DNA of 45,908 bases, taken from assembly GCF_001904655.1 (NCBI RefSeq), contig NZ_MRCC01000026.1:1-45908 (forward strand). The letters are read 5' to 3'. Source of the stretch: Chroogloeocystis siderophila 5.2 s.c.1 (GTDB lineage Bacteria > Cyanobacteriota > Cyanobacteriia > Cyanobacteriales > Chroococcidiopsidaceae). Both the position numbers and the translations under genes were made by a program. Shown here piece after piece: positions 6,115 to 32,632 of the stretch. The notes below the pieces were generated by a model, which made no database searches, was not told where the DNA came from, and saw only the letters and a list, made by a program, of their open reading frames with translations. Each line of letters begins with the position of its first letter. Positions within the stretch are counted from its first letter, which is position 1.

Positions 6115-6464
6115 AACTGAAGAAAGGCGAAGACGAAGAGGTAGAAGGTTTTGATATTCTAGAAGCTCCATGTGTCTTCATACTTTGAAGCTTCTAACTC
6201 ATTTAAGACAATATATATCCCTAGAAATCGCTTTAACAATACTGTCTCAAAAGCCTACTCTCCTGCTTTATTTATGAGAACTCCATAAAAGCCTTCTGTT
6301 TTCTGAACTCTAATCCATCTTTCTGTTTCATGTTTGAGATTCAATTACCAAAATTTGCTTATCAATGCTATAAGTGATAGCTTCGGGATCAATAAAGCTA
6401 TATATTAGTTTCAGAAAGCCTGCTGTGTGTTGATTTCAGATTGATGGAAAGAGGTAGAGAAATC
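6115..6464. other. Intergenic region upstream of psbU
   Basis: This is about 350 bases between the DUF3120 gene and psbU, AT-rich and without a convincing ORF. It must hold the psbU promoter and leader. I could not assign -35/-10 elements with confidence. A purine-rich stretch just after the DUF3120 stop (AAGAAAGGCGAAGACGAAGAGG) is not followed by a reading frame that looks like a protein. Confidence 0.5.
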
Positions 6465-6902
6465 GTGAAACGATTGATGCGTGTATTGGCAATTTTGTTT
6501 TTCGTCGTAGGGTGTCTGGGATGGCTTGGCGTACCGCAACAAGCAGTTGCGGCAAATTTGAGCAATGTCAGCCTGCATTCAGCAATTTTGGGGGTTGAGG
6601 TAGAATCAGCACCGCGAAACCGTGCTGATGACAAACTAGCTACGGACTTTGGTAAAAAAATTGATTTGAACAATACCAATGTAAGAGCATTTCAACGGTA
6701 TCCAGGAATGTATCCTAATCTAGCCAAGAAAATCATCAAGAATGCTCCCTACGAAAATGTTGAGGATGTGTTAAATATTGAAGGATTGAGTGATCGCCAG
6801 AAAGAACTGTTACAAGCGAATCTGGACAAATTTACGGTAACTGAACCCGAAGCAGCTTTTGTCGAGGGCGATGATCGCGTTAACAATGGAATCTATCGAT
6901 AA
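6465..6902 (+). CDS. psbU: Photosystem II extrinsic 12 kDa protein PsbU precursor
   Basis: PsbU binds the lumenal side of photosystem II and stabilises the oxygen-evolving Mn cluster. The reading frame begins with a signal peptide ([18 protein letters not shown], then [11 protein letters not shown]). The mature protein contains [40 protein letters not shown], the helix-hairpin-helix-like [21 protein letters not shown], and the typical C-terminal [12 protein letters not shown] prefer the GTG at 6465, preceded by GAGG about ten bases upstream, because it gives the usual short positively charged N-terminus. TTG 6441 and ATG 6444 would add eight or seven residues. It is monocistronic, with a strong terminator directly downstream. 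Confidence 0.95.
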
Positions 6903-12765: not shown

Positions 12766-13629
12766 CTAACTCCGCACCCCCGATTCTTGATCTTTGATCC
12801 CCATCGGATCGCCCACCTTTAACGTTTGTAGTTTACTACTGCGTGCAGCTTCGACAAATTGGCTAACGCGAATCGGATCGATTGTTTGCTCGCGGCGACC
12901 GTGCCGTTTCAGGGATGAGGAGACGATCACACCGTCTGCGGCTTGCATTAATGTCGAAATATTTTCCCAGTTCGCACCGCTGCCAATCAGAACTGGCGTA
13001 TCATAAGCTGCTGCTTTGGCAAGTTCTAAATCTTGTAAATCGGGTGGGCTACCTGTTGCCCACCCTGACAAAATGACGGCATCGGCTAAACCCCGCTCGA
13101 TCGTATCTTGTACAGCCACAGTAAGATTTGGCGAACTCAACGGTCGTGCGTGTTTGACAAGCACATCCGCAAAAATTCGGACATCGCTGCCAATTTCGCG
13201 ACGATAGCGCAATAGTTGGTGCGCTTGCCCTTCGATTAATCCTTGATCTGTTGCCATCACGCCCGTGAGAACGTTGACGCGAATGAATTGGGCTTTAACA
13301 ACCGTGGCGATCGCTAAGGCGCTATGCGCGTCGTTCCGCAGGACATTCACGCCAAGCGGAATTGTAACTAACTGCATTAGCCGCTGAATGACTACGGTCA
13401 TCGCACTGACTACTGCTGGATCTACTTGATTTTTCGTAAATGGCGCGTCAAAAAAATTTTCAACGATAATACCATCAACGCCGCCACTCGCCAGCGCTGT
13501 TGCCTCTTGTTCGGCACGGTCAATCACGGCTTTAAGGTTATTACCCCAACCTGGTGCGGTGGGCAACGGTAGTAAATGAACTACGCCGATAATTGGGTTG
13601 GGAGTTTTAAATAGCTGCTTTAAGTCCAC
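12766..13629 (-). CDS. btpA: BtpA family photosystem I biogenesis protein
   Basis: The protein has 287 residues with a TIM-barrel-like pattern: IIGVVHLLPLPTAPGW near the N-terminus, GGVDGIIVENFFDAPF, VNVLRNDAHSALAIA, VRIFADVLVKHARPL, DAVILSGWATG, PVLIGSGANWENI and DGVIVSSSLKRHG. In Synechocystis BtpA is a peripheral thylakoid protein needed for stable accumulation of PSI reaction centre proteins. The start is GTG at 13629 with GGAG five bases upstream. The last dozen residues (MGIKDQESGVRS) look like read-through into repeat-type sequence rather than conserved family sequence. It is transcribed toward the VKOR gene with a gap of about 105 bases containing TAGTGACTAGTGGC-type repeats. Confidence 0.92.
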   Translation of the reverse strand: MDLKQLFKTPNPIIGVVHLLPLPTAPGWGNNLKAVIDRAEQEATALASGGVDGIIVENFFDAPFTKNQVDPAVVSAMTVVIQRLMQLVTIPLGVNVLRNDAHSALAIATVVKAQFIRVNVLTGVMATDQGLIEGQAHQLLRYRREIGSDVRIFADVLVKHARPLSSPNLTVAVQDTIERGLADAVILSGWATGSPPDLQDLELAKAAAYDTPVLIGSGANWENISTLMQAADGVIVSSSLKRHGRREQTIDPIRVSQFVEAARSSKLQTLKVGDPMGIKDQESGVRS

Positions 13630-18522: not shown

Positions 18523-19968
18523 ATGGTAAACAAGGCTTCGTTGAAGCAGATTTCTCCTAAAATTAATCTTCTAACAATGTTCCGACTGGGCTTATTTCAG
18601 ATGGGATTAGGCATTATGTCGATCCTGACGCTGGGAGTACTCAACCGGATCATGATCAAAGAATTAGCGATTCCCGCAACTTTGGTAGCAGGGACAATTG
18701 CCATGCATCAGTTTGTTGCACCTGCAAGATTATGGTTTGGTCAGTTGTCGGATGCAAAAACGATTGGTGGAACGCACCGTACTGGTTATGTGTGGATTGG
18801 CGCAGCGTTATTTGCGATCGCGTCTTTTTTAGCCGTACAAGTAACATGGCTGTTAGGAAACAGCGTTCACTCGCAAGGTTGGACATTGACAACTTACAGC
18901 TTGATTGCACTGCTAGGAGGCATTTTTGCGCTGTACGGGTTAGCACTGAGTTCGAGTTCGACTCCTTTCGCCGCATTGCTTGTAGACGTTTCGGATGAAG
19001 ACAATCGCTCTAAACTTGTTGGTATTGTATGGTCAATGTTGATGGTAGGGATCGTGATTGGCGCGATCGTCAGTGGAAGATTACTTCCTGCGCCTACAAC
19101 TTGCCAAGACGCAGTTGTGAACTCAATCTATAGCAATCCGCAAAGTCTAGCGTTGCTCCAAAATTCGATTAACCGCTTGTTTATTCTGCTACCTGCGGTT
19201 GTGTTTGGATTGGCAGTGTTCTCAACTTTTGGTGTAGAAAAGAAATATTCGCGTTACACATCGCGTTCGATGATCGCCAACCGCGAAGACAAAATTACGC
19301 TTTCTCAGGCATTAAAAGTATTAACCGCTAGCCGTCAAACAGGTTTGTTTTTCACGTTCTTGCTCGTCATGACGGTTAGCTTATTTATGCAAGAAGCGGT
19401 GATGGAACCTTATGGCGGTGAAGTCTTTGCGATGTGTGTTTCAGAAACGACGCGGTTAAACGCGTTTTGGGGAACGGGAACGCTTTTAGGCATTAGCAGT
19501 ACAGGGTTTTTGATTGTACCGCGTATTGGCAAGCAAAAAACTGCGCTCTTAGGCTGTTTGACAGTTGCGTTCTCGTTATCATTAGTTGTACTATCGGGTT
19601 TTAGTGCGAATCCACAGATGTTGCAAGGAGCTTTATTATTATTTGGTTTAGCTTCTGGCGTCACAACCACAGGCGCAATTAGTTTGATGCTCGACTTAAC
19701 CGCAGCAGAAACCGCAGGAACTTTTATCGGTGCGTGGGGATTAGCACAAGCGATCGCACGGGCGGTAGCAACTGTTACGGGTGGTGCAGTCCTCGATATT
19801 GGCAGACAAATATTTAGCGATCGCGTCCTGGCTTACGGCTTAGTATTTACAGTGCAAGCATTTGGAATGCTTTTGGCAATTTGGTTTCTCAACCGCGTTG
19901 ATGTGGCAGAATTTCGTTCAAACGCTAAAAACGCGATCGCTTCGATACTGGAGAATGAATTAGATTGA
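18523..19968 (+). CDS. PucC/BCH family MFS-type carrier
   Basis: The protein has 481 residues and about twelve hydrophobic segments. It starts with the family block INLLTMFRLGLFQMGLGIMS and continues with ALILSSS-type helices such as FALYGLALSSSSTPFAALLV and DVSDEDNRSKLVGIVWSMLM. The PucC/BCH family includes bacterial light-harvesting assembly proteins. In cyanobacteria members are proposed to handle chlorophyll or its delivery to pigment-proteins (for example LhcR/Slr-type homologues), though direct transport has not been shown. The start is ATG 18523. The stop TGA overlaps the TTG start of the following phosphatase-like gene by four bases (TTGA), so the two are probably translationally coupled. 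Confidence 0.86.
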   Translation: MVNKASLKQISPKINLLTMFRLGLFQMGLGIMSILTLGVLNRIMIKELAIPATLVAGTIAMHQFVAPARLWFGQLSDAKTIGGTHRTGYVWIGAALFAIASFLAVQVTWLLGNSVHSQGWTLTTYSLIALLGGIFALYGLALSSSSTPFAALLVDVSDEDNRSKLVGIVWSMLMVGIVIGAIVSGRLLPAPTTCQDAVVNSIYSNPQSLALLQNSINRLFILLPAVVFGLAVFSTFGVEKKYSRYTSRSMIANREDKITLSQALKVLTASRQTGLFFTFLLVMTVSLFMQEAVMEPYGGEVFAMCVSETTRLNAFWGTGTLLGISSTGFLIVPRIGKQKTALLGCLTVAFSLSLVVLSGFSANPQMLQGALLLFGLASGVTTTGAISLMLDLTAAETAGTFIGAWGLAQAIARAVATVTGGAVLDIGRQIFSDRVLAYGLVFTVQAFGMLLAIWFLNRVDVAEFRSNAKNAIASILENELD

Positions 19969-27335: not shown

Positions 27336-28190
27336 CTAGCTAGTTCGGTAGGTTTTAGGTGTCATTCCGGTATGCTGCCGCATCCATTTACCTAAATGGC
27401 TATGACTGCTGAAGCCACACTGCATGGCAATTTCCATAACGGGTAGTTTTGTTGTTTTGAGTAACTGCTTTGCGCGTTCTCCTCGTTGCTGAAGTACATA
27501 TTGATGCGGTGCGACTCCGGTTGATTGCTTAAATAATCGACTGAAGTGAAATTGACTCATCTCTAGCAGTTGGGCTAAGTCAGATAGTTTGATATCTTGA
27601 GCTAGATGAGCGCTAATATAATCCGTCACTTGTAACAGTTGGCGATCGCTCAATCCGCGATCGCACAATACAACGCACGACGAGACAGCAGAGTATTTTC
27701 TCAGTAGATGTACGGCTAAGACATTCGTTAGTGATTCAACATATAGCCGCCCTGCAAATCCTCCAGCATACAGTTCAGTCAAAAGCATGGTACTAATTTG
27801 TTCGATTTGAGGATTGCGGTCTCGAAACTCTGGTAGGAGTTCTACGCGGTTAGAGTCCATCACAACAGTTTCTTGCGCGACTTGCTGAAGAAACGCATCC
27901 GCGATTTGAATTCGCAAGTAGCGATCCTCGTGATTCCATTGGCAATAAAGCAGCGACTTTGCCGGAATAATTGAGATATCGCCTTTAGTAATAAGACCTG
28001 TGTAACGGCGATTGCCGATCGTTTGCGACAAGCGCGCTGGACGCGGGTTTAAAGATAAGCACAGCGTATGTCCAGTTAAGCTTTGATATTTCTCTTGTCC
28101 TGGAGGTTGACAAAATTCTTCGACCACAATGTTTTGCCAACCGGATATTTCACTTGAATAGATCGGAGGATTGAGACTGTTTGCTTGCAT
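27336..28190 (-). CDS. AraC family transcriptional regulator
   Basis: The N-terminal about 180 residues form a sensor region (GLITKGDISIIPAKSLLYC). The C-terminal about 100 residues hold two helix-turn-helix motifs typical of AraC: IKLSDLAQLLEMSQFHFSRL with FKQSTGVAPHQYVLQQR, and LPVMEIAMQCGFSSHSHLGK ending in HTGMTPKTYR. I use ATG 28190; TTG 28202 would add four residues. It is divergent from the MATE exporter gene with about 120 bases between, so it is a good candidate regulator of that exporter; the inducer is unknown. Confidence 0.9.
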   Translation of the reverse strand: MQANSLNPPIYSSEISGWQNIVVEEFCQPPGQEKYQSLTGHTLCLSLNPRPARLSQTIGNRRYTGLITKGDISIIPAKSLLYCQWNHEDRYLRIQIADAFLQQVAQETVVMDSNRVELLPEFRDRNPQIEQISTMLLTELYAGGFAGRLYVESLTNVLAVHLLRKYSAVSSCVVLCDRGLSDRQLLQVTDYISAHLAQDIKLSDLAQLLEMSQFHFSRLFKQSTGVAPHQYVLQQRGERAKQLLKTTKLPVMEIAMQCGFSSHSHLGKWMRQHTGMTPKTYRTS

Positions 28191-28312
28191 TTGGTTGTTC
28201 AACTTTTAGATCGCAAGATTGTGTAAGTTGCACAAGGTTTGAGTAGTCTGCGATCAAGCAATTTTTATAGATTTTAAGCGATGAACAAGTGTAGCAGCAA
28301 GGAGGCATTCGA

Positions 28313-29683
28313 ATGCTTGCCAAGTCAAATATCAAAGCTGAGATTGGCGAATTTCTCAAACTCGCGATTCCACTCGCGAGTGCGCAAGTGGCGCAAGCCA
28401 TTGTTGGGTTTGTCGATACTCTGATGATGGGACAATTGGGCGCAGAGAGTCTCGCAGCTGGAGGATTAGCATCAACGACTTTTCAGCTGTTGTTGAATAT
28501 TGGCAGTGGCGTCGTGATGGCAGTCAGCCCACTTGTTGCGATCGCGTATGGTGGGGGACACAAAACGCAAATCGAGCAAATTGCACGTCAGGGAATATGG
28601 CTATCGTTGCTACTTGGCATACCGATGATGTTCTTCCTTAGGCATTTGGATGCGGTGATGGTTCACCCAGGACAAGCAAAAACAACCGTTGTATTAGCTG
28701 ATGGATATCTTAATTTGATTTTGTGGGGAATTTTCCCCGCCTTAGGGTTTGCTATGTTGAGAAGCTATGTATCGGCGCTTTCTCAAGCCCGTCCGGTGAT
28801 GGTGATTGTCTTTTTAGGAACGCTTGTGAATGTGACTGGTAACTATGTTTTAGGCTATGGTAAGCTTGGATTTCCCCGAATGGAGTTGGCAGGTTTGGGG
28901 TTAGCGAGTGGACTCAGTTTTTGGGTCATGTTTTTGATTTTGCTTGTCTACACACTCAAACACGAGCAACTTAAGCATTATCGATTCTTACAAGGTTTGC
29001 ATTGCCTGAAACCGCATATTATTCAGCAGTTGCTACGAACTGGAGTACCGATCGCCGTTACGATCGCCTTGGAGTATGGACTGTTTGCAGTGGTAACTTA
29101 CTTAATGGGGACGTTGGGAACTGATGCGCTGGCAGCACATCAAATCGTTTTTCAAACAATGCTGGTAATTTTTATGGTACCGCTGGGGATGTCTTACGCA
29201 GTGACGGCGCGTGTTGGTCAGTGGTTAGGACAGCAAAACCTCCCTGGTGCGCGTCTTGCAGGGTATATCGGCATATCGACGGCTTTTTTATTTATGGCAC
29301 TAACTGCGATCCCTCTACTCGCATATTGCCAGCAAGTCGTCGCCATGTATTTGGATATCCGCGATCAGCAAAACGCCAATGTACTCAAACTTGCACTACC
29401 AATCATGACGATTGCGGCGATCGCTCAACTTTTGGATGGTGTTCAAAAAACAGCTATGGGTGCGTTATACGGATTGCAAGATACGCAGATGCCAATGTTG
29501 CTAAGTGTGCTGGCATTTTGGGGTGTAGGATTACCGAGTGGCTATTTGCTAGGATTTCGCCTTGGTCTTGGAAGTGTTGGATTGTGGGTCGGACAATCGA
29601 TGGGAGTGGCGATCGCCGGAATCATTTTTCTTCGGCGCTTTCACCAACTAACCTCGCGGACATTTAGAAGCGGTTATTCGTAA
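28313..29683 (+). CDS. MATE family multidrug/metabolite efflux transporter
   Basis: The 456-residue protein has about twelve hydrophobic segments in two related halves. The opening LKLAIPLASAQVAQAIVGFVDTLMMG and the second-half ALEYGLFAVVTYLMGTLGTDALAAHQI are typical MATE repeats. Family members export cationic drugs or metabolites using Na+ or H+ gradients; the substrate here is unknown. A strong ribosome-binding site (AAGGAGG) lies seven bases before ATG 28313. It is probably controlled by the divergent AraC-type gene. Confidence 0.93.
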   Translation: MLAKSNIKAEIGEFLKLAIPLASAQVAQAIVGFVDTLMMGQLGAESLAAGGLASTTFQLLLNIGSGVVMAVSPLVAIAYGGGHKTQIEQIARQGIWLSLLLGIPMMFFLRHLDAVMVHPGQAKTTVVLADGYLNLILWGIFPALGFAMLRSYVSALSQARPVMVIVFLGTLVNVTGNYVLGYGKLGFPRMELAGLGLASGLSFWVMFLILLVYTLKHEQLKHYRFLQGLHCLKPHIIQQLLRTGVPIAVTIALEYGLFAVVTYLMGTLGTDALAAHQIVFQTMLVIFMVPLGMSYAVTARVGQWLGQQNLPGARLAGYIGISTAFLFMALTAIPLLAYCQQVVAMYLDIRDQQNANVLKLALPIMTIAAIAQLLDGVQKTAMGALYGLQDTQMPMLLSVLAFWGVGLPSGYLLGFRLGLGSVGLWVGQSMGVAIAGIIFLRRFHQLTSRTFRSGYS

Positions 29684-30122
29684 CAACTCTAGCAAAGTTG
29701 TATGTAAGTTCTTTTTAAAGATAAATACAAAGGATCTTGCTGCAAACTTTCACAAATTACACAAAATAGGAGAATTTGTGAAAATCGATTTTGTAATTGT
29801 TATGTTTTATTGCTACAAATTTATGATGGGAATATAAACCTTATCCCAATTATCAAAATAATTCCTGTTCGTGATTTAGTATTACTTCTTGTAGTTGCAG
29901 ATTAATAAAATACTTAATTTATACAAATAGAATTATCTCTATTATCTTTTTCAACAGATAATACAATACTATCATATAGATTAATCTCTATATAAAACCT
30001 ATAATAATCCTAATGTTAAGTTATAAATTACTTTATTAAATTGTAAGAATTTTTGCTGACTTTTTTAGAAATAAGAGTTAAAAAAAAGCTAATAAAGTTC
30101 TCAATTTTGTGGAGGACAGCAA
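29684..30122. promoter_or_regulatory. Long AT-rich upstream region of the apcD4-apcB3 pair
   Basis: About 440 bases of AT-rich sequence with no ORF. At 29748-29783 is a perfect 11-bp inverted repeat, TTTCACAAATT and AATTTGTGAAA, with a 14-base spacer containing ACAAAATAG. It could be an operator for the downstream genes or, less likely, a terminator of the MATE gene, as the T-run is poor. Just before apcD4, GGAGG (30111-30115) is a strong ribosome-binding site. Confidence 0.5.
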
Positions 30123-30599
30123 ATGAGCATAGTAGCACAAGTAATCGCTCAATCGGATGATGCTAATCGTTTTTTGAGTAATACTGAGCTAGATAAACTA
30201 CAAGATTTTTTCAGAACAGGAGAACAGCGGTTAAAAGTTGCTCAAATCTTGACACAAAATGAACAAAAAATTGTGCAGGAAGGCAGCCGTCGCTTTTGGC
30301 AAGTTGTTCCGAATACACCGAGTAATAGCGGCGATCCTCAAAAGACGGCATTATGTCAACGAGATCAAAGCTGGTATCTACGATTAATTTCCTATGCCGT
30401 CTTAGCAGGTAACATGAAACCCCTCGAAGACATTGGTGTAGATGGAATGCGAGAAATGTATACTTCTTTAGGCGTTCCTGTCAGTAATATAGGCAATTGT
30501 ATGCGTTGCCTAAAAGAAGTTGCAACCAACATGATGAGTAGTGAAGAGGCGGCGATCGCCAAGCCTTATTTTGACTATTTGATTCGCGCAATGTACTAG
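30123..30599 (+). CDS. apcD4: Divergent allophycocyanin alpha-type subunit, ApcD4-like
   Basis: The phycobiliprotein subunit has 158 residues. It keeps the globin-like pattern of ApcA/ApcD (MSIVAQVIAQSDDANRFLSN, LDKLQDFFRTGEQRL), the bilin-attachment cysteine C78 in TALCQRDQSWYLRLISYAVL, the REMYTSLGVPV block and C-terminal PYFDYLIRAMY. The segment before the cysteine (VVPNTPSNSGDPQKTALC) lacks the usual PGGNAY and is about three residues shorter than in ApcA/ApcD. The adjacent apcB-type gene and isiX-like antenna gene match the LoLiP cluster, in which ApcD4 pairs with ApcB3 to form far-red-absorbing allophycocyanin. The ApcD4 name rests on divergence plus context. GGAGG lies seven bases before the ATG, and apcB3 follows after 71 bases. 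Confidence 0.85.
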   Translation: MSIVAQVIAQSDDANRFLSNTELDKLQDFFRTGEQRLKVAQILTQNEQKIVQEGSRRFWQVVPNTPSNSGDPQKTALCQRDQSWYLRLISYAVLAGNMKPLEDIGVDGMREMYTSLGVPVSNIGNCMRCLKEVATNMMSSEEAAIAKPYFDYLIRAMY

Positions 30600-30670
30600 A
30601 TCTTCAAACGCAATTTTTGTGAAGTTAATTTCTGCAATCTTTTTACCAATTTTAGTTTGAGAAGAAAGCA

Positions 30671-31156
30671 ATGCAAGATACAATTACTTCGCTCATTAAC
30701 CCAGCAGATCAACGCGGCAAATATCTAGAAACCGAGGAATTAGAAAAGCTAAGAAGATATTTCCAATCTGGTGAATTACGTGTCAAAGCTGCATCGGCAA
30801 TTAGTAATAATGCGGCTAATATCATCCGCGAAGCTGTAGCCAATTCGTTGCTTTATGGTGATATTACTTGTCCTGGTGGGAATATGTATCCGACTCGGCG
30901 TTATGCAGCTTGTATCCGCGATTTAACGTTATTTTTACGTTATGCTACTTATGCAATGCTAGCAGCCGATCCTTCGATTTTAGATGAGCGAGTGCTTGAT
31001 GGACTTAAGGAAACTTACGATTCATTAGGTGTTCCTATCCAGCCTACGATACAAGCAATTCAAGCAATGAAGGAAGTTACGACTCGCTTGGTGGGTGCTG
31101 AAGCGGGTGGAGAAATTGGGATGTATTTTGACCATATCTGTAATGGTTTAAGTTAA
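30671..31156 (+). CDS. apcB3: Allophycocyanin beta-type subunit, ApcB3-like
   Basis: The 161-residue subunit is the usual ApcB length. It keeps N71 ([11 protein letters not shown]), the position methylated in phycobiliprotein beta subunits, and the chromophore cysteine C81 ([20 protein letters not shown]). The block [19 protein letters not shown] and the C-terminal [10 protein letters not shown] are typical. An extra Cys67 (ITCPGG) is unlike standard ApcB as I recall it. It probably forms heterodimers with the upstream ApcD4-like protein. GAGAAGAAAG precedes the ATG. Transcription probably stops at the hairpin at 31196-31221. Confidence 0.88.
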
Positions 31157-31185
31157 ACGTTTTCTCCAATGATTTTTTGGTATTG

Positions 31186-31241
31186 AGAAGCCCCCTAAAT
31201 CCCCCACAAGTGGGGGATTTAGAATTAGGGGAGGGGTTTTT
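31186..31241. terminator. Bidirectional terminator between apcB3 and isiX, formed by a dispersed repeat
   Basis: A perfect 12-bp stem, TAAATCCCCCAC (31196-31207) and GTGGGGGATTTA (31210-31221) with an AA loop, is flanked by AAGCCCCC and GGGGTTTTT, which extend the pairing imperfectly. The plus strand ends in T5. It separates convergent genes whose stops are 88 bases apart. Similar AAATCCCCCAC palindromes are widespread repeats in cyanobacteria. Confidence 0.8.
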
Positions 31242-31243
31242 AT

Positions 31244-32632
31244 CTATGCACCATATCTATATCCAAAGGTTTTACCATGTGTACTTGTTCGAGTTGGGTA
31301 AGTTGTTTCGTAGAGTTTACGCGGTATTGAGTGTGGATAGTTGACATTAGATTGATCCTCGGCTGGGCTTTCGTAAAACGAGTTTGAATGATTTTTGGGA
31401 TAGCTAAATTCGTAAAGAACTTTTTGATTTTGCTGTGGGTTAATGAAGCTTGGCTTTCCATTTGGGCGCGAAGGATTATAAAGATTGTCATTCGCGGGTT
31501 GTTGATACGCAAAAGCTGGTTTTTGCTTAATTATTGGAGTTTCGTAAAACGTGTCTAAATTAGATTGTGGCTGGTAATTAAAATGTTTTTGATACGCTAA
31601 GTTGGGATTGGGTAAGATTTCTGAGAAAGCATTTTTCCAAGATTCTAATACTGGTTCAAAGTAACTCGCAGCTAGCCCAAAATGCCATATCGAACCTTGA
31701 AGAACAACAAACGCAAGGTAAAAATAGGCGTTGGCTAACCAAATTCGCGATGTGGGTTCGGGATCGCCTGGAATATAAAAGTGGGGTAAGAGAAATAAAT
31801 TAAACTGCGATCGCACGCCATAAAACTCTTCAGGATACACCAGCGTGTTAAATCCGCAATAAAACGCCCCAGCAAATCCAACGAGTGACAGCGCAAATAG
31901 CGAGTACCCTAAAATTGCATTTCCAGAAAAGATAAACCGCCGTTTGACCCAATCAAAAGGTTCGCGGGAAAGATGCCAGATTCCCCCTACAATGAGCAGT
32001 ACACCGGCGTAGATATGACCGCCAACGACATCTTCTAAGTTGTTTACCGTAAATAGATGCAAGATGCGATCGCTAATTACCAGTGGATTGAGCGTTGGAT
32101 TTGTCACAACTCGCACTGCACCTAGATTAGCATCGTATAAACCACCAAAAAACATTGCTTTAGCAGCGACAAGTAACGCGCCTAAGCCCAAGAAAATGAG
32201 ATGATTACCTAAAATCAACCCTAATTTCTTCGGGTCATCCCAGCTAAAATGATAGCGACGTGCTAGTAATTTCTCTTCTTCTAAGCTTTCAGCAACTTTA
32301 GTGCGATGAAACCAAGTACCAACTGCAAATACGAGCGATGAGATAATTAAGACAACAGCGATCCGAAAATAAGGCTGAGTATCGATCGCTTGATTATTTA
32401 ATACACCCCAACCTTGGGTTGCTAAACGCGGTAGCCAAAATAGCTTTTGCTCATACATTGGTTGCGTTGGCGAGTAGCGCGCAATTTCCCACAAAATCCA
32501 CGCACCAACACCAAAACATACAATCGCTGCGTGTGCAATATGTGCAACAAGAAATGTTCCTGACAAGTTAATAAATCGGGCATTTCCAGCCCACCAAGGA
32601 TGTTTGACCTTGTTTTTGCTGGATGTTTGCAT
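31244..32632 (-). CDS. isiX: CP43-like chlorophyll-binding antenna, IsiX type, with C-terminal extension
   Basis: The 462-residue protein begins with an IsiA/CP43-family domain of about 340 residues with six membrane helices. It shows WWAGNARFINLSGTFLVAHI, HAAIVCFGVGAWILWE, GLILGNHLIFLGLGALLVAA, FTVNNLEDVVGGHIYAGVLL and ANAYFYLAFVVLQGSIWHF, including the paired histidines that ligate chlorophyll. The large lumenal loop E of CP43 is absent, as in IsiA/Pcb proteins. Beyond SYFEPVLESW (about 323-332) it continues for roughly 120 residues of Asn/Pro/Tyr/Gln-rich sequence with repeats such as DTFYETP, KVLYEFSYP, NSFYESP and RKLYETTYP. There is no PsaL domain. Converging on apcD4-apcB3, it matches isiX of the LoLiP cluster; a different IsiA-family subtype cannot be excluded. 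Confidence 0.82.
   Translation of the reverse strand: MQTSSKNKVKHPWWAGNARFINLSGTFLVAHIAHAAIVCFGVGAWILWEIARYSPTQPMYEQKLFWLPRLATQGWGVLNNQAIDTQPYFRIAVVLIISSLVFAVGTWFHRTKVAESLEEEKLLARRYHFSWDDPKKLGLILGNHLIFLGLGALLVAAKAMFFGGLYDANLGAVRVVTNPTLNPLVISDRILHLFTVNNLEDVVGGHIYAGVLLIVGGIWHLSREPFDWVKRRFIFSGNAILGYSLFALSLVGFAGAFYCGFNTLVYPEEFYGVRSQFNLFLLPHFYIPGDPEPTSRIWLANAYFYLAFVVLQGSIWHFGLAASYFEPVLESWKNAFSEILPNPNLAYQKHFNYQPQSNLDTFYETPIIKQKPAFAYQQPANDNLYNPSRPNGKPSFINPQQNQKVLYEFSYPKNHSNSFYESPAEDQSNVNYPHSIPRKLYETTYPTRTSTHGKTFGYRYGA

Follow-up and report, generated by a model that had tools for sequence, protein, structure and literature searches.

The low-light photoacclimation (LoLiP) clusters of Synechococcus A4/A14/A1463 comprise isiX, apcB3, apcD4 and LcyA, and the helical structure of an ApcD4/ApcB3 allophycocyanin (APC) is available (8ddy; PMC10038336). 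Related clusters vary in composition and arrangement: LoLiP clusters without LcyA have already been described (PMC12214013), a convergent layout has been published for Chlorogloeopsis fritschii 9212 (PMC6424891) and the psbA4-apcD4-apcB2-isiA2 cluster of Halomicronema hongdechloris shares ApcD4, a partner beta subunit and a tailed IsiA (PMC6416890). The tail in H. hongdechloris, about 150 amino acids rich in glutamine and proline, has no known function (PMC6416890). It has been proposed elsewhere that the IsiX tail threads the tube as a ruler, in a paper that presents this as a proposal and leaves open how the nanotubes are held and sized (PMC10038336). Here we report a cassette of this known kind, in a variant form, from Chroogloeocystis siderophila 5.2 s.c.1. 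It lies on contig NZ_MRCC01000026.1, a stretch of 45,908 bases that we call the window, in a genome of 5.0 Mb and 43 contigs that is 99.8% complete. In our judgement IsiX of this LoLiP cassette is probably, first of all, a membrane tether or ruler for a helical far-red ApcD4-ApcB3 allophycocyanin, acting through its tail, with its body on the side of photosystem I (PSI). New here are the tyrosine boxes and invariant residues of the tail, the body-less 'mini-IsiX' proteins, the co-occurrence of tail and ApcD4, and the lineage-specific lack of certain histidines in IsiX and of two cysteines in ApcD4. The available parts of PMC10038336, PMC4477158, PMC6424891, PMC6416890, PMC4658448, PMC12279586 and PMC12214013 make no mention of tyrosine boxes or of a body-less IsiX. 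The invariant tyrosines, the mini-IsiX and a duplicated tail make a tail-centred view of IsiX directly testable.

Identity of the trio

All three genes are intact (Table 1). Pfam was run on 33 of the 37 window open reading frames (ORFs) of at least 120 amino acids, the four omitted ones overlapping larger frames; the apcD4 and apcB3 ORFs matched the Phycobilisome family (4.6e-56 and 4.7e-56) and the third ORF the PSII/CP43 family (1.2e-48). An earlier sequence-only reading had described two allophycocyanin-type genes standing apart from any other phycobilisome gene of the window and converging on a CP43-like antenna gene. The strands and positions of the ORFs agree with this, and the pair gave the sole phycobilisome matches in the scan. 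The same reading had recognised a LoLiP cassette with a divergent ApcD and had called for phylogenies, which place all three proteins inside LoLiP clades. Among 37 alpha subunits the window protein falls in the ApcD4 clade (17 rows, support 100/99), apart from ApcA/ApcD-like alphas and those of the far-red light photoacclimation (FaRLiP) type, and among 25 beta subunits its partner falls in the ApcB3 clade (17 rows, 100/99). Among 51 IsiX/IsiA/CP43-type bodies the antenna joins an IsiX clade of 30 rows (100/100) that excludes the 21 IsiA/CP43-type paralogs, and it does not group with iron-stress IsiA. The alpha and beta trees draw on 13 of the 29 ApcD4-bearing named loci together with the window and the copies from C. 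fritschii, Nodosilinea and Hyella, with L103 left out; the IsiX tree leaves out the mini-IsiX, L033, L048, L018 and duplicates. A first IsiX tree that contained the paralog row L091, which has a very long branch, gave 65/99 for the clade that reaches 100/100 without it.

The diagnostic residues point the same way. Residues named for helix formation or red shift (PMC10038336; PMC11614940) are present in both subunits: ApcD4 has Ser11, Phe58, a BE loop three residues shorter, Lys74 and the phycocyanobilin-binding Cys78, and ApcB3 has Thr4 and Pro11. The beta subunit further carries Asn71, Pro74 and Cys81. Ser11 occurs in 17/17 ApcD4, as against Ala in 19 of the 20 other alphas (the last has a gap in the alignment), while Thr4 with Pro11, and likewise Pro74, are found in 17/17 ApcB3 and in 0/8 other betas. 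In a search of the PDB the alpha subunit matched 8ddy best. Its beta partner obtained a higher score with ordinary ApcB than with 8ddy_B, and this is what could be said for regarding the trio as ordinary ApcD and ApcB next to an iron-stress IsiA, brought together by accident. We consider that explanation practically excluded: the trees and diagnostic residues rule it out, and separate APC and IsiA/CP43-type paralogs exist elsewhere in the genome, those resembling ApcA, ApcB, ApcD and ApcF on other contigs and the IsiA/CP43-type ones at three further places, also on other contigs. Moreover, the window IsiX groups outside IsiA, carries a tail and lacks histidine at the Chl405 site. That the three genes are real is shown by purifying selection. 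In comparisons with the four closest relatives the ratio of nonsynonymous to synonymous substitution rates (dN/dS) lies at 0.028-0.037 in apcD4 (dN being zero in the pairing with L146), at 0.011-0.027 in apcB3, at 0.06-0.10 in the body of isiX and at 0.15-0.25 in its tail, so the trio is not a product of chance.

Among the ten phycobiliprotein-like places of the genome there was no sign of a FaRLiP cluster, chlorophyll f synthase not having been part of the search. FaRLiP gene sets hold several short-loop ApcD, a second ApcE and ApcB2 (PMC4390838). Among the four APC alpha-like proteins of this genome that were aligned, the short loop is confined to ApcD4, and one long frame of ApcE type came up. 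If the organism truly has no FaRLiP genes, far-red harvesting can be studied in it alone. A second ApcA-like alpha subunit, 43% identical to ApcD4, lies on a small contig (G000:C36:3825-4304, L004) and groups with a C. fritschii copy.

The tail and body of IsiX

The tail of IsiX measures 145 amino acids in the window and 133-247 across 25 full-length rows. An AlphaFold model of the window protein (mean pLDDT 64.6, from 24 sequences; pLDDT is the predicted local distance difference test) has six long helices, a short helix at 326-339 and residues 335-462 below pLDDT 50; the model lacks the additional membrane helix that PMC4477158 had suggested for the tail. The tail keeps nine invariant residues, six of them tyrosines (W332, Y347, Q348, Y363, Y385, L406, Y407, Y420 and Y441), in 26/26 aligned tails, that is 23 full-length and three mini-IsiX, without L050, L018, the split frames L033 and L048, and L035, where the contig ends. 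Tails are also rich in [LIVMFA]-Tyr-[EQ] boxes, with 142 in the 28 tails examined where chance would give 14.3; for 26 of these tails no more than 0.2% of shuffled sequences held as many boxes, and for the remaining two 1.1% and 2.0% did. In Oscillatoria sp. CS-180 (L050, 12081-12821) about 60 amino acids of the 247-amino-acid tail, tyrosine boxes included, are present twice (score 101; 0/1000 shuffles as high), a duplication seen by direct alignment of the halves and missed by BLAST self-comparison. When 386 genomes of the phylum were searched, a tail model matched five (E 0.01), the same five that have ApcD4. The ApcD4 search itself returned seven (E 1e-55), the two without a tail sitting in clusters with several ApcD-type genes; one of them (L019) groups in the tree with the alphas that we label FaRLiP-type.

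The fold of the body is closest to IsiA in PSI-IsiA complexes and many histidines are conserved between the two; the window IsiX differs from the IsiA of the ring around PSI in its tail, in a serine at the Chl405 ligand and in three further missing histidines. In IsiA, H333 is the ligand of Chl405, a chlorophyll that sits where neighbouring IsiA proteins touch (PMC7214436); at this position, matched via an alignment offset, 6/6 IsiX rows carry Ser or Gly (Ser314 in the window). Arg69, Leu95 and Tyr303 occupy the other three sites in 8/8 rows of the window's family, as against histidine at all three in 22/22 other IsiX and in 19, 21 and 19 of 22 paralogs (a badly extracted L091 row included). 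The positions of Leu95 and Tyr303 we take to be those of the chlorophyll-binding His118 and His430 of CP43, a correspondence for which a literature search found nothing. Fewer chlorophyll sites are to be expected in IsiX of the window's lineage.

In three genomes, Pleurocapsales LEGE 10410 (L043), a Myxosarcina metagenome-assembled genome (L045) and Pleurocapsa CCALA 161 (L046), apcB3 is followed by a gene of 172-176 amino acids, the mini-IsiX, in which the IsiX N-terminus runs almost directly into the tail and the six-helix body is missing. N-terminus, tail and position after apcB3 are thus as in IsiX, whereas the chlorophyll-binding body is not there. A full-length IsiX query found no tailed full-length IsiX in these three draft genomes. 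The L045 genome also holds an IsiA/IsiX-type body fragment with an internal stop (G479:C76:114625-115140, L086). Its apcD4-apcB3-mini-IsiX stands in a single run (L045, 1554-11093) between upstream genes that resemble those of phycocyanin, together with one for a ferredoxin-dependent bilin reductase, and downstream genes for a histidine kinase with PAS/GAF domains and for a receiver protein. The broken cluster of G465 (L142, 9156-9994) was considered as a second body-less case and rejected: a 19-kb stretch gave no apcD4 match, apcB3 is a 43-residue fragment and isiX lies in two pieces on opposite strands. Putative viral copies came to nothing either, with 26 pattern matches and 0 confirmed.

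Tether, antenna or remnant

From these observations we infer how the cassette might work. ApcD4 and ApcB3 would assemble into a far-red allophycocyanin, probably a helix like the 8ddy tube with its seven protomers per 72.6 Å (PMC10038336). The disordered tail of IsiX would serve as an adaptor whose tyrosine boxes dock along this assembly, most likely on its inner, beta-lined wall, and which would set its length. The six-helix body would anchor the assembly at the thylakoid beside a photosystem, probably PSI (the partner argued for in PMC10038336), to which energy would then pass. The body has shed conserved histidines in the window's family and was deleted whole in one Pleurocapsales lineage; because the tail was kept in both cases, what stays constant in IsiX function would be the tail rather than the chlorophylls, and the sequences suggest that the tail is the key part. 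Geometry offers a plausibility check. At 3.4 Å per residue, residues 347-462 (116 residues) following the helix would pass 11.6-16.5 protomers for assumed inner radii of 18-12 Å, whereas stretched out in a straight line they would reach across 38; a reach of about 10-13 protomers has been estimated (PMC10038336). This fits a helix-following tail, with radii that are assumed, and proves nothing. One box per protomer was rejected as too regular a scheme for the observed tyrosine spacing. We further think it possible, with somewhat less confidence than we hold for the tether itself, that IsiX is modular: a multivalent disordered tail would bind and measure the tubes, the body could lose chlorophyll sites or vanish, and tail length could alter by box duplication, as in L050. 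The Pleurocapsales tail might then need no membrane helices for its work and perhaps connect the tube with a phycocyanin-rod or phycobilisome system encoded upstream.

Several observations weigh against a tail-centred tether. Nanotubes formed from the overexpressed ApcD4-ApcB3 gene pair (PMC10038336), so the tail was not needed for tube assembly there. The invariant tyrosines are unevenly spaced (16, 22, 22, 13, 21). In the window's family the body is better conserved than the tail by dN/dS, and hence is not dispensable in that family. This selection on the body is also among the grounds for taking IsiX to be foremost a chlorophyll antenna through which far-red allophycocyanin passes its energy on to PSI, with the tail as a helper for tube length, as proposed by Gisriel et al. 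2023 (PMC10038336) and in keeping with the closeness of the body fold to IsiA in PSI-IsiA complexes. We regard this as somewhat unlikely, in view of the three genomes that keep a tail without a body and yielded no tailed full-length IsiX, of the missing histidines at 69, 95 and 303 throughout the window's family and of the Ser or Gly at the Chl405 ligand. The mini-IsiX evidence has its own weaknesses: it comes from three genomes of one genus group with a near-identical junction, so that the three junctions are probably one event, and the constraint is modest. Mini-IsiX dN/dS is 0.46-0.48 (L043 against L045 and L046), higher than the 0.16-0.28 of three full-length tails and the 0.09-0.11 of apcD4, and L045 and L046 differ by five nonsynonymous and no synonymous changes. 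The gene could accordingly be a deletion remnant that is being lost and says nothing about function. To us this seems unlikely, given that in 3/3 genomes the frame is open, the nine invariant tail residues are retained and an open apcD4-apcB3 pair precedes it, and that there is an excess of synonymous changes (P = 0.03, L043 against L045). Finally, contact between the tail and ApcD4-ApcB3 is a proposal, and PMC10038336 also allows an outside wrap; the tail might bind something other than far-red allophycocyanin, for instance PSI, an ordinary phycobilisome or a second IsiX molecule. The co-occurrence of tail and ApcD4 in the 386-genome sample and the retention of the tail in proteins without the body, which is the part proposed to face PSI, make such a partner unlikely.

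The colour of the complex is a further matter. The window ApcD4 has Val62 and Ala92 in place of cysteines, as have all three rows of its lineage (window, Gloeocapsopsis crepidinum and Chlorogloeopsis), whereas Cys62 and Cys92 are present in 14/14 other ApcD4 rows and Cys62 is called conserved in LoLiP ApcD (PMC12279586). Because the clade and the other marks hold, we file the protein as a variant ApcD4. The H. hongdechloris cluster is far-red-stimulated, with 728-nm absorption and a beta Trp75 where the window beta has Thr75, and mixtures with C62S or C92S ApcD4 gave no 728-nm component (PMC12279586). The complex of the window lineage might therefore be less red-shifted and not a 710-nm antenna, an outcome that we consider doubtful. 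The far-red hallmarks (short BE loop, Phe58 and Lys74; PMC11614940) are present. The 728-nm form also required the beta Trp75, which is lacking in 17/17 ApcB3 rows, and the cysteine requirement is known for the 728-nm form, although the 709-nm protein does have both cysteines. Judged by these hallmarks, the window ApcD4-ApcB3 would be expected to absorb far-red light.

Layout, expression and surroundings

The window shares with Synechococcus the trio, the diagnostic residues and a long IsiX tail (the alpha subunit was aligned directly with 8ddy and IsiX compared by the papers' descriptions); it differs in its convergent isiX, in Val62/Ala92 and in having no LcyA-like gene. No GAF domain, as in an LcyA-type photoreceptor, was found in the 33 scanned ORFs (Pfam, E 0.001 or 1e-5; for one WD40 protein among the best 25 of 54 families). 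C. fritschii (PCC 6912; PCC 9212 in PMC6424891) has the convergent layout and the Val62/Ala92 ApcD4 of the window, and its IsiX (98/91) and ApcD4 (98/89) are sister to the window lineage. Its IsiX keeps the three histidines, however, and C. fritschii possesses FaRLiP genes besides, of which no trace appeared when the window genome was searched for phycobiliproteins. Deletion of genes in PCC 9212 by means of conjugation has been reported (PMC4658448). Among named relatives the closest copy is that of G. crepidinum LEGE 06123 (ApcD4 97%). A search for relatives gave 34 loci, of which L052 and L054-L056 hold alpha subunits of other kinds and L057 is truncated. In the remaining 29, isiX is collinear in 23, a mini-IsiX is collinear in three, two are convergent (L024, L025) and one ends at a contig end (L035); two of the 23 have isiX as two overlapping frames, by frameshift or sequencing error (L033 3739-5248 and L048 11155-12698). 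In the window's family the tail was found in 9/19 genomes, eight intact and convergent and one broken (G465). Instead of the single co-transcribed operon of Synechococcus, isiX lies on the opposite strand in 8/8 intact family clusters, and this convergence means that at least two promoters are needed.

Table 1 Features of the apcD4-apcB3-isiX cluster in window coordinates
Feature	Position	Strand	Description
apcD4	30123..30599	+	158 aa, predicted far-red allophycocyanin alpha subunit; ORF, Pfam, PDB match, tree, residues
apcB3	30671..31156	+	161 aa, allophycocyanin beta subunit; ORF, Pfam, tree, residues
isiX	31244..32632	-	462 aa, CP43/IsiA-family protein that ends in a tail; gene runs towards apcD4-apcB3
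isiX body	31682..32632	-	Residues 1-317, six long predicted helices
isiX tail	31247..31681	-	Residues 318-462: a short helix followed by a stretch of low model confidence, probably disordered, that carries the tyrosine boxes
Candidate promoter or regulatory region upstream of apcD4	29976..30068	+	Partial conservation; putative function
GGAGGA, ribosome-binding-like, before apcD4	30111..30116	+	Retained in 8/8 aligned relatives
Palindrome between convergent stops	31195..31222	.	By eye; candidate bidirectional terminator or small mobile repeat

The conservation 5' of apcD4 was seen in an alignment of nine genomes, the eight relatives including C. fritschii; by eye, no clear motif is common to the apcD4 and isiX promoters. 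Far-red light brought no increase of these genes in C. fritschii. According to a later paper, isiX transcripts exceed those of apcD4 and apcB3 under far-red light there, but isiX is not RfpABC-regulated and probably not far-red-specific (PMC6424891). RNA sequencing in Synechococcus gave no more than a slight rise in low light (PMC12214013). In view of these expression results, 'low light' is a borrowed label for the window strain. Upstream of apcD4 an AraC-type regulator and a MATE transporter are mutually divergent (27336-29683). Further photosynthesis-linked genes of the window encode a PucC-family transporter (18523-19968), PsbU (6441-6902) and a member of the BtpA family (12766-13629), a family linked to PSI.

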